Assembly (NCBI GenBank): GCA_019973575.1
Contig: BPUI01000001.1
Coordinates: 2,554,342 to 2,618,341 of the forward strand
From: Gemmatimonadetes bacterium T265
Lineage (GTDB): Bacteria > Gemmatimonadota > Gemmatimonadetes > Gemmatimonadales > Gemmatimonadaceae
Length of the DNA stretch: 64,000 nt
Reading direction: 5' to 3'
In this document: positions 9,714-29,184 of the stretch, piece after piece
How the letters are laid out: each line of letters opens with the position of its first letter
Numbering within the stretch: the first letter of the stretch is position 1
The notes under the pieces: model-generated
Database searches by the model: none
Seen by the model: only the letters and a program-made list of their open reading frames with translations
What the model was told of the DNA's origin: nothing
Made by a program: the position numbers and the translations under genes

Positions 9714-9758
9714 CGGGGCGCCGCACGCGGCTTGCTACCAGCCGCGTGCGGCGCCCCG
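9714..9758. terminator. Perfect 19-bp inverted repeat (strong hairpin)
   Basis: Arms 9714-9732 and 9740-9758 are perfectly complementary over 19 bp, around a 7-base loop (TGCTACC). It is one of the strongest stems in the window. It has no U tract on either strand, so it is not a classic intrinsic terminator. It stops 13 bp before the ATG at 9772. If transcription reads through from the sigma operon, the hairpin would sit right against the ribosome-binding region of the next gene. Confidence 0.55.
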
Positions 9759-26255: not shown

Positions 26256-27899
26256 TCAGCGGACCGCCGGCTTCTTCGTGTTGAGAACGATCACGCCCGC
26301 CCGTCCCGCGTCGCCGTACCGCTCGGTCGCGAGCGCACCCTTGAACACGTCGACGGTCGCGATCGTGTCGGGTGAGAAGGTGTCCAGGACGGCGTGGCCA
26401 CGACCCGCAATGCGCCCGTCAACAACGACGAGCACCGAATCACCCGGCACGCGCGTTCCGACCACACGCCCACGTACGGTCGCAAGGGTCGCCGTGGCGC
26501 GCGGCGTTCCGCCGCCGGACTTCGTCGTGTCGCCCGCCGCGCGGCGGCGGACCCACACGACGTGCACGCTGTCCTGGGCGACCCGCCCGGGCGCGATCCG
26601 CAGCACCTCGACCGACGCAAGCTGTTGAGGGTCGACCGCGGCGAGCGGATCGCGGTCGACGCCGAAGGGCGCGCCCGGATCGCGGAGCGCGCTCCGCTGC
26701 GGGCCGGCCGCGTCGGCGTGTGTGACGCGCTCGATGGTGCCGTCCGCGCGCTGCACCACCCACACGATCTGCGTCCGGTTGGTCCGCGCGGCGAGCAGCT
26801 CGGGCATGCGCGCCGCGATAACGCTCCGAACGGCATCGATCGACGCGTTCGGCCCCGCGGCCGGCGCGGCCGACGGGTCCGCGGCGGTGATGCTCGTGAG
26901 CGGGACGCGGTTCGCCGGCGCCGGTCCCGTGGGCTTCGGGATCTCACACGCGGCAGCGACGGCGGCGACGGCCGCCAGCGCGGGGACGAGCGCGCGGCGG
27001 GGCGCGCGGGAACGCTCGGACGACATGGCCTCGATTCTCCGGCGAAGCAGGGTGGGGGTACCGCCTAACGTGAGGGCCGGCGCGCGGACGTGCGGGCGCG
27101 CGGCCACGTCCAACAACAGCGCGCCGTAGCGGCGCGTCACTGCGTCGCCGGCGCCGCACGCGCCGCAGCGGGCGAGTACTCGTCGGTCGCAGTCGACCTC
27201 GACCGCGGCCCGCAGGCGGCGCACGAGCCACCACACCGCGGGGTTCCAGGGAACGAGTGCGGCCACGACCGCGCCCGCAGCCAGCAATCGTGCGTCGTGC
27301 GCCCGCACGTGCTCGCACTCGTGCGCGAGCATGAGCGGCAGTCGCGGGTCGTCGAGCGCCCAGCGCGGAAGCACGATCTCGGCGCGCCACGCCCCGACGA
27401 CCGCCGGGCCGAACTCGTCCGACACCCGCACGCGCTCGCCCGACACGGCACGCGCCGGCCACGTGTACGAGGTGCGGCGCGTTGCGGCGGTGGCGGCGGC
27501 GATCCGCGCGAGCGCTCCCGCCGTGAGCACAAGCCAGACGGCCAGCAGGCCGCCGTCGAGCGACCCCCACTCGGCCGGCGCCGCGACGTGGCGCGGGAGG
27601 GCTCGTAGGACGCACCACCACCGCGGCGGCTCCGCCACGCGCATCCGCGTCCGCCCGCCCGACAGCGACGCCGGGTTGATGCGCTCGGCTGCGACGCCGC
27701 CGTCGCCCCCGCGCGCGGTCGCGTCGTGCGTCGCCTGCCAGAGCGCCGCGGCGGGTAAGGCGAGGGCGATCGCGAGGGCGCTCGCCCAGCCCCACCGTGC
27801 CGCGCGCCCCGCCGCGTGCGCAGCACGCTCGGCGAGCCACGCTCCCGCGGCGCACAACACGCCGACGAGCGCGGCGTAGATCATCGCGAGCGCGATCAT
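26256..27899 (-). CDS. BlaR1-like M56 metallopeptidase with TonB-plug-like C-terminus
   Basis: 547 residues. The N-terminal half is a BlaR1/MecR1-type membrane peptidase with several hydrophobic segments and the zinc motif HECEH (about residue 207) in LMLAHECEHVRAHDARL. In BlaR1 this domain destroys the repressor BlaI after a signal. The usual penicillin-binding sensor domain is absent. In its place is a region ending DTIATVDVFKGALATERYGD and AGVIVLNTK, which resembles the plug of TonB-dependent receptors. ATG 27899 overlaps the blaI stop (ATGA), forming the standard repressor-protease pair. The inducing signal is unknown and no beta-lactamase is nearby. Confidence 0.85.
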   Translation of the reverse strand: MIALAMIYAALVGVLCAAGAWLAERAAHAAGRAARWGWASALAIALALPAAALWQATHDATARGGDGGVAAERINPASLSGGRTRMRVAEPPRWWCVLRALPRHVAAPAEWGSLDGGLLAVWLVLTAGALARIAAATAATRRTSYTWPARAVSGERVRVSDEFGPAVVGAWRAEIVLPRWALDDPRLPLMLAHECEHVRAHDARLLAAGAVVAALVPWNPAVWWLVRRLRAAVEVDCDRRVLARCGACGAGDAVTRRYGALLLDVAARPHVRAPALTLGGTPTLLRRRIEAMSSERSRAPRRALVPALAAVAAVAAACEIPKPTGPAPANRVPLTSITAADPSAAPAAGPNASIDAVRSVIAARMPELLAARTNRTQIVWVVQRADGTIERVTHADAAGPQRSALRDPGAPFGVDRDPLAAVDPQQLASVEVLRIAPGRVAQDSVHVVWVRRRAAGDTTKSGGGTPRATATLATVRGRVVGTRVPGDSVLVVVDGRIAGRGHAVLDTFSPDTIATVDVFKGALATERYGDAGRAGVIVLNTKKPAVR

Positions 27900-28351
27900 G
27901 GCGTCCGTCGCGGTGGACGGCGGGCCCGGTCGGGCTCGGGTTCGGCGTCCGCTGTGGGCTCGGACGACGCGGGTACGCCGCCGAGGCGCTCGTCGAGCAA
28001 CGCGCGCATCCGGCGTAGCTCGTCATCACTCACGCCGCGCTCGCGAACGAGGTGCGTGAGCAGCAGCTCCGGCGAGCCGCCGAAGATCGTGCCCAACAGC
28101 CGCCGCAGCGCGCTCCGCCCCGCGGTCTCGCGCGCGACGAGCGCCCGGTAGCGGTGCGCGCGCCCCTCCTCCTCGTGCGCGACGTGCCCCTTCGCTTCGA
28201 GCGTGCGGAGCACCGTGAGCACGGTCGTGTACGCGAGCTCGTGCCCGGCGTCGGCGAGCGCGTCGCGGACGTCGGCGACGGTGCTCGGGCCTGCCGCCCA
28301 GAGCACGGTCATGACGTCGAGCTCGCGGTCGGTAAACGTGACAGTGGACAT
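27896..28351 (-). CDS. BlaI/MecI-family transcriptional repressor
   Basis: 151 residues. A winged-helix domain (FTDRELDVMTVLWAAGPSTV, VRDALADAGHELAYTTVLTV, LRTLEAKGHVAHEEEGRAHR) is followed by a dimerisation helix region (LRRLLGTIFGGSPELLLTHL) and an acidic/Arg tail. The family binds palindromes as a dimer and is inactivated by proteolysis by the M56 partner, here encoded immediately downstream. The promoter and a 28-bp inverted repeat abut the ATG, so it almost certainly represses itself and the M56 gene. There is no Shine-Dalgarno in the 28-base leader. Confidence 0.92.
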   Translation of the reverse strand: MSTVTFTDRELDVMTVLWAAGPSTVADVRDALADAGHELAYTTVLTVLRTLEAKGHVAHEEEGRAHRYRALVARETAGRSALRRLLGTIFGGSPELLLTHLVRERGVSDDELRRMRALLDERLGGVPASSEPTADAEPEPDRARRPPRRTP

Positions 28352-28409
28352 GCGGGCCGGGTGCGTGGTATCTACTAGTCCACTAGTAGATACCACGCAC
28401 CCGGCCCGC
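28352..28409. promoter_or_regulatory. Perfect 28-bp inverted repeat: BlaI operator
   Basis: Arms 28352-28379 and 28382-28409 are exact reverse complements, with only CC between them, making a 58-bp near-perfect palindrome. The core is ATCTACTAGT/ACTAGTAGAT, close to the TACTA-type half-sites of BlaI/MecI operators. The outer parts are GC-rich. One end touches the blaI ATG and the other the -35 box, so it covers the whole promoter and leader. It could extrude as a cruciform or, in read-through RNA from pdxH, fold into a 28-bp hairpin. Confidence 0.85.
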
Positions 28410-28415
28410 TGTCAA
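28387..28415 (-). promoter_or_regulatory. Sigma-70-type promoter of blaI-M56 operon
   Basis: On the minus strand a consensus -35 TTGACA (28410-28415), a 17-bp spacer and a -10 TATCTA (28387-28392). Transcription would start near 28380, the centre of the operator palindrome, giving a leader of about 28 bases. It is the best match to a housekeeping promoter in the window. Confidence 0.8.
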
Positions 28416-28432
28416 CTAGCGATTTAGTAGAT
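28414..28432. promoter_or_regulatory. Second, imperfect BlaI-like site
   Basis: AACTAG-CGATTT-AGTAGAT overlaps the -35 box and repeats the ACTAG / AGTAGAT half-sites of the main operator in weaker form. It would give cooperative binding over the promoter. It begins 9 bp beyond the pdxH stop codon. Confidence 0.5.
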
Positions 28433-28440
28433 AGCCCGGA

Positions 28441-29184
28441 TCAGGGTGAAAGCCGCTCCCGGCGCCAGGCCGTCCCGGCTCGCGCTTCGTCTCGGACGTA
28501 CCGGATCCGGTCGTGCAGTCGGCTCGCCCTCCCCTGCCAGAACTCGTACGCGACCGGCACGACGCGATAGCCGCCCCAGTGGTCCGGGAGGGGCACCGCC
28601 CCGCCGCCGGCGAAGCGCGCCTCGGTCGCCGCGAAGTCCCGCTCCAGCGCCCCACGATCCGGCAGCACGCTCGATTGCCGGGAGGTCCACGCTCCCATCT
28701 GGCTCCCGCGCGGCCGCGTGGCGAAGTACGCCGCGCTCTCGTCGCGCGACGTGCGCTCGACGACGCCCGCGACGCGCACCTGCCGCTCGAGTTCGGCCCA
28801 CCAGAAGACGAGCGCGGCGCGCGGGTTCGCCGCCAGCTCCTGCGCTTTCCGCCCGCGGTAGTCCGTGTAGAAAACGAACCCGCGCGCGTCGGCGCCCTTG
28901 AGCAGCACGACGCGCGCGTCTGGCGTCCCGTCGGGCCCCACGGTCGCGAGCGTCATCGCGTTCGGCTCGACCGCCTTCGCGTCGAGCGCCTCGCGGAACC
29001 AGCGGCGGAACTGGGCGACCGGGTCCGGGTCGACGTCGCCCTCGTCGAGCGCCGCGCGCGTGTAGGACCGGCGCAGGTCGGCGATCTCCGGGTCGACCGG
29101 CGCGACCGGCGGGCGCCCGCCTAACGTGGGATCGAGAGTCGCGGGGTTCGGCGCGTCGGCCCCGGACGCGGTCGGGTCGCTCAC
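28441..29184 (-). CDS. pdxH: Pyridoxamine 5'-phosphate oxidase
   Basis: FMN enzyme that makes pyridoxal 5'-phosphate from pyridoxine or pyridoxamine phosphate. 247 residues, slightly longer than the family because of a 35-residue Pro/Ala-rich N-terminus. Motifs: [20 protein letters not shown] (FMN), [30 protein letters not shown], and the C-terminal [18 protein letters not shown]. It lies 4 bp downstream of bioB in the same orientation. PLP is the cofactor of BioF and BioA, encoded a few genes away, so cofactor and pathway are linked here. Confidence 0.93.

Follow-up and report, generated by a model that had tools for sequence, protein, structure and literature searches.

IS10/Tn10 is protected from external promoters by read-through RNA in which an inverted repeat pairs with the transposase start region. 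For the I-TevI gene of phage T4, transcripts arriving from upstream fold into a hairpin covering the ribosome site, late transcripts begin within this hairpin and escape, and an autorepressor operator overlaps the late promoter; the same arrangement of late promoter and hairpin is present in I-TevII, I-TevIII, segB, and Aeh1 mobE (PMC2988022). Among repressors of the BlaI/MecI/CopY type, the CopY operator has the consensus RNYKACANNYGTMRNY, and control through two operators has been proposed for S. aureus BlaI and the cop operons (PMC7253601). In quasipalindrome mutation, a template switch converts an imperfect palindrome into a perfect hairpin in a single event (PMC8794818).

The locus compared with these systems lies in a 64-kb stretch of DNA, analyzed as a whole and hereafter called the window. 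It belongs to a genome of 5.63 Mb in six contigs, and the comparison covers one genome of the genus. The features of the locus, numbered by window position, are as follows.

26256-27899, minus strand: M56 (BlaR1-like) metallopeptidase gene, overlapping the end of blaI (PF05569, E 2.1e-16)
27896-28351, minus strand: blaI-type repressor gene, 151 aa, ATG start (PF03965; start backed by the nearest relative, L002)
28352-28409: 58-bp palindrome from the inverted-repeat search, with arms 28352-28379 and 28382-28409 and centre 28380-28381
28352-28371, minus strand: 20-nt leader from operator O2 to the ATG, a mirror of the promoter spacer, without a Shine-Dalgarno sequence
28372-28389, minus strand: O2, BlaI-type operator CTACTAGTGGACTAGTAG, the palindrome core, overlapping the -10 box and the predicted start; same dyad in relatives
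28379-28381, minus strand: transcription start at the dyad centre, predicted from the distance to the -10 box
28387-28392, minus strand: -10 box TATCTA, 17 nt from the -35 box, with a position-specific TA...T signal in 103 promoters
28410-28415, minus strand: -35 box TTGACA, recognized by sequence and conserved in relatives
28413-28430, minus strand: O1, second operator CTACTAAATCGCTAGTTG, overlapping the -35 box, 41 bp from O2
28441-29184, minus strand: pdxH (TIGR00558, above cut-off), on the same strand as blaI and a possible source of read-through

The preliminary description of this DNA was right about the identity of the gene and its promoter. The blaI product matches PF03965 (Penicillinase_R) with an E-value of 8.5e-31 and 107.1 bits, above the gathering score, and the -10 signal is found in 103 promoters. 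The solved structures nearest to it by sequence are 2g9w, a 138-residue 'conserved hypothetical protein', and MecI. A partner gene of the M56/BlaR1 type is present in the operon. Its product scores far below the cut-off of the blaR1_generic equivalog model and, by that test, is probably not a beta-lactam sensor; its C-terminus carries a TonB plug/SusC-like tail (PF07715, residues 464-536), with no penicillin-binding sensor there. The pdxH stop lies 89 nt ahead of the blaI ATG, and a gene with biotin-synthase-type domains is found further upstream. None of about 50 related loci has pdxH near blaI (within the ~1.5 kb examined), which rules out a conserved pdxH-blaI linkage.

Both the perfect repeat with its 2-bp centre and its reach, from the base before the ATG to the base next to TTGACA, were confirmed. 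The arms are 28 nt each, 100% complementary, and separated by 2 nt. On the minus strand, the order is CTACTAAATCGCTAG-TTGACA-GCGGGCCGGGTGCGTGG-TATCTA-CTAGTGGACTAGTAGATACCACGCACCCGGCCCGC-ATG, with the dyad centre at 28381/28380 and the ATG at 28351-28349; one outer base adjoins the 3' end of TTGACA and the other lies at the base before the ATG. The baseline for repeats was a 464-kb sample, consisting of the window and twenty 20-kb samples of the same genome, in which inverted repeats with arms of at least 12 nt number 26 in all. Because the palindrome is the longest inverted repeat with a loop of up to 10 nt in this sample, and the runner-up has 19-bp arms, it is not a product of chance. It is also single copy in the 5.6-Mb genome, which rules out a repeat family or mobile element. 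With one gap allowed, symmetry continues for a few bases beyond both ends, where TTGACA mirrors the TGTCCA of ATGTCCA; a second match reaches 92% over 75 nt. Elsewhere in the window, positions 9714-9758 hold a perfect inverted repeat (19-bp arms, 7-nt loop), one of those that rank second for length in the 464-kb sample; it lies between two plus-strand reading frames and has no T-run after it.

Judged by its sequence, the palindrome has at its core (~18-24 bp) an ordinary operator of the BlaI family, to which binding is predicted. Its dyad, CTACTA-N6-TAGTAG, occupies the same position in relatives. The preliminary description had set the whole repeat beside natural BlaI operators; the operator is confined to this core, and the outer arms do not make it a bigger one. 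The range then described, 28352-28432, covers the palindrome and also takes in the second operator at 28413-28430, which overlaps the -35 box and had been left undescribed. Elsewhere in the genome, only two O1/O2-type sites with at most one mismatch were found, both ahead of a blaI paralogue on a different contig (0 matches for the reversed pattern, used as a control). At that paralogue (G000:C3:69949-70019), O1 and O2 are 53 bp apart and the palindrome is not extended.

The O1/O2 pair precedes blaI genes throughout the family. The strict O1/O2 definition fits 39 loci, in which the starts of the two sites are 38-55 bp and mostly 42-46 bp apart, and the exact pattern occurs in 72/295 genomes of the class, the reversed control being rare. 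Approximately 100 BlaI-type promoters of the class have two operators and a -10 box exactly 17 bp from TTGACA. In the hexamer exactly 17 nt after TTGACA in 103 promoters, T is found in 62, A in 88, and the final T in 81; this TA...T signal is absent at neighbouring spacings of the same promoters. A simple consensus promoter scan did not include the -10 box TATCTA among its listings. Because the O1/O2 pair and the -10 position are conserved, the predicted promoter and its operators rest on good evidence, and transcription can be strongly inferred to begin at the O2 centre or close to it. Two variants of the architecture were also observed. At L062, L022, L060, L011, and L073, O2 has TAGGAG as its right half, which makes the half-site a Shine-Dalgarno sequence as well; in read-through RNA, a mirror CTCCTA (or variant) would pair with it. 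At G367:C44:13-68 and G237:C1:2325728-2325783, back-to-back TAGTTGACA boxes have one common spacer, apparently two divergent BlaI-type promoters in complete overlap.

The unusual part of the locus is its extended outer arms, not the operator core. Over the 20 bp outside O2, symmetry is 20/20 here compared with 2-12/20 in 38 other loci, and the run of perfect symmetry is 20 compared with 0-3. A search of the contig set for close relatives returned 61% identity at best, with no operator pair there. All close relatives keep the operator pair but have lost symmetry in the outer arms. By the refuting outcome named in the preliminary description itself, this contradicts the notion that the palindrome is needed for repression. 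It does not refute insulation from upstream transcription, since none of the relatives has pdxH ahead of blaI.

The palindrome alone folds at -59.4 kcal/mol; local fold energies in 36 relatives average -18.6, the next lowest after this locus being -37.1. In read-through RNA, the 18 nt before the ATG have a predicted mean unpaired probability of 0.00, and the fold places a stable hairpin over the start region, as described for I-TevI. For RNA starting at 28380-28382, the same 18 nt have a predicted value of 0.64-0.70, in agreement with the earlier proposal that the leader would be open in transcripts of the gene's own promoter. Such RNA, if it starts at the palindrome centre, would be unable to form the hairpin. 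The proposal that read-through RNA hides the start holds for the predicted pairing of the leader; the ATG is not within the stem but at its base, and the leader offers no Shine-Dalgarno sequence to hide. An intrinsic terminator (GC-rich hairpin and T-run) is ruled out by the absence of a T-run on either side.

We propose that this is an autoregulated two-operator promoter whose extended O2 palindrome blocks translation of read-through RNA from pdxH, a model to which we give an even chance of being correct. In a BlaI-type promoter with O1 on the -35 box and O2 on the -10 box and +1, BlaI bound at both operators would block the promoter, as expected from the family. The O2 palindrome appears to have been extended outward, one arm over the whole -35/-10 spacer and the other over the whole leader to the ATG. 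RNA reading through from pdxH would contain both arms and fold into a hairpin of ~27 bp, probably preventing ribosomes from loading at blaI, and RNA of the gene's own promoter would start at the dyad centre, lack the left arm, and stay open. With its own RNA open and read-through RNA closed, the switch would therefore answer only to its own promoter. A template switch at the operator palindrome may have produced the extension, which would then have been kept. This origin is plausible; O2 as the inner anchor and the nearly complementary TTGACA/TGTCCA as the outer anchor form the usual setting of a quasipalindrome template switch. Insulation from read-through is the best single account of the geometry and of its recurrence at O2 in other loci.

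This recurrence was assessed by folding O2 with 20 nt on either side and comparing the result with constructs carrying the leaders of other loci. The figures leave out the present locus, and where stated, the 4, 6, or 8 nt next to O2 were kept constant in case the operator is longer; all flank-pairing and orientation tests were devised during the analysis, after the data were seen. Real leaders pair better than permuted ones in 38 loci (P 0.0002). For 102 loci, z is -6.9, and -4.3, -3.1, and -2.7 with the first 4, 6, and 8 nt fixed; for 115 loci with 4 nt fixed, O2 flanks again pair more than permuted leaders (z -4.7). The same test gave no excess at the equally palindromic O1 (z -0.4 and -0.7). 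About ten loci carry the O2 excess, and most loci are without an extension. Extended hairpins with unrelated stem letters are found at L308, L085, the second site of L069, L073, L064, L008, L209, L309, and L175, and in most of them the stem includes the Shine-Dalgarno sequence or the start codon. The clearest case, L308, reads GGAGCGGGTCC-TA-GGTTCTACTA-aataac-TAGTAGAAC-AA-AGGACCCGCTCC-C-ATG, with arms GGAGCGGGTCC/GGACCCGCTCC and an end adjoining the ATG. It lies directly behind a co-directional blaI-M56 operon, as does the second site of L069, located alike but with unrelated letters in its stem; these are places at which insulation would be of consequence. These second BlaI-type promoters drive another gene, an 885-aa open frame in L069 and a fragment only in L308; no orthologues of either promoter with O1/O2 were found, nor any of the L069 promoter with hairpins of their own.

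The comparative flank-pairing test thus lends partial sequence-based support to the insulation idea. Extended hairpins around the same operator do recur in unrelated loci, as insulation would lead one to expect, but folding does not clearly favour the sense over the antisense strand (Wilcoxon P 0.25), and because of this, selection on RNA is not separated from symmetry of the DNA. A hairpin that insulates from read-through should occur behind same-strand genes. With the upstream strand called by a codon model, z is -3 or lower in 7/45 same-strand compared with 1/46 opposite-strand loci (Fisher P 0.027), and in 6/40 compared with 0/41 when only confident calls are used (P 0.012). The one opposite-strand case, L085, is a low-scoring call, and by eye a same-strand frame ends just before its O1. 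An overall shift to stronger hairpins behind same-strand genes, seen in a first sample (P 0.003-0.014), is not significant in a larger one (P 0.07-0.16). The orientation link is borderline, a lead rather than proof. With somewhat less confidence than for the single locus, we suggest that BlaI-type promoters of the class may repeatedly use the operator to seed an RNA hairpin by which translation of read-through messages is prevented, so that the palindrome would be both DNA switch and RNA insulator, formed in single template-switch steps and kept behind same-strand genes.

A serious rival for this extreme, phylogenetically isolated copy is a tolerated accident, in which a template switch during replication replaced the spacer by a copy of the leader (or the leader by a copy of the spacer) and which has no function of its own; we consider this a real possibility, though a doubtful one. 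Template switching is known to yield perfect hairpins (PMC8794818). Here it could have been primed inside by the O2 palindrome and outside by the chance TTGACA/TGTCCA match, both anchors being already present in the nearest relative, L002 (protein 73% identical). The perfect arms stop exactly at two elements unable to change, and the event would be tolerated since the -35 box, -10 box, spacing, and ATG are intact. Like the leader here, that of L002 has 20 nt, ends in CCCGC-ATGTCC, and is without a Shine-Dalgarno sequence; the two leaders match at 13/20 positions (permutation P 0.02; not significant over the outer 17 nt alone, P 0.24) and the two spacers at only 4/17, a hint that a mirror of the leader has overwritten the spacer. 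Perfect repeats of 13-19 bp are not rare in the genome, as represented by the 464-kb sample. Against an accident speak the enrichment of extended pairing at O2 but not at O1, its recurrence at start codons with unrelated letters, and the position of the strongest cases behind same-strand genes.

The hairpin might instead serve pdxH, marking or protecting the 3' end of its mRNA as a U-less terminator, an exonuclease block, or an RNase III cut that parts the two messages. In favour of such a role, the 89 nt that follow pdxH contain no other strong hairpin, and RNase III acts well on stems of 27 bp. We consider it improbable: a T-run is found on neither side, the arms end exactly at the -35 box and the ATG, and relatives with extended hairpins have no pdxH upstream. 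A role of the whole 58 bp at the DNA level, as an enlarged repressor-binding or cruciform site, would suit the operator at its core and the excess of flank pairing on the other DNA strand as well. It is nevertheless very improbable, given that the GC-rich outer arms are unlike the CTACTA half-site, are conserved in no relative keeping O1 and O2, and have no counterpart at O1, which is not extended. As a larger operator in particular, the 58 bp were rejected, the outer arms being neither conserved nor similar to the half-site. Perfect palindromes with short loops can also be artefacts of assembly, produced by a fold-back join; this one lies within a 2.99-Mb contig and its flanks run on correctly into O1/-35 and blaI, and we regard such an origin as barely credible.

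If insulation from pdxH read-through is correct, one operator palindrome would serve twice: as DNA it would bind the repressor, and as RNA it would insulate the gene from upstream transcription. This would explain how autoregulated switches in densely packed genomes remain tight despite having other genes in front of them, and would provide a natural insulator part that is easily testable. It would also be a case for the one-step creation of a regulatory hairpin by template switching.

The locus shares with BlaI, MecI, and CopY the winged-helix family PF03965, dyad operators, and two sites, one near the -35 box and one over the promoter and start. Its sites, CTACTA-N6-TAGTAG, form what is by sequence a class-specific operator, without the TACA-NN-TGTA core of staphylococcal and CopY members (not a protein-family criterion), and are 41 bp apart, compared with usually 42-46 bp in related loci. 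The M56 partner ends in a TonB-plug-like tail, in contrast to the penicillin sensor of the BlaR1-type system. IS10/Tn10, a lead only, involves a transposon end and not a repressor operator, and quasipalindrome mutations would explain the origin of the palindrome but not its function. Likeness to I-TevI extends to the predicted read-through hairpin, an own promoter apparently placed so that its RNA would be without one arm, and an autorepressor operator over the promoter. I-TevI serves phage temporal control of an endonuclease and has a Shine-Dalgarno sequence, whereas here there is a cellular BlaI-type repressor, a perfect palindrome centred on the operator dyad, and no Shine-Dalgarno sequence. 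By this analogy, the logic is already known from T4 I-TevI; what would be new is that an operator dyad seeds the hairpin, at a cellular repressor gene and repeatedly within one class.
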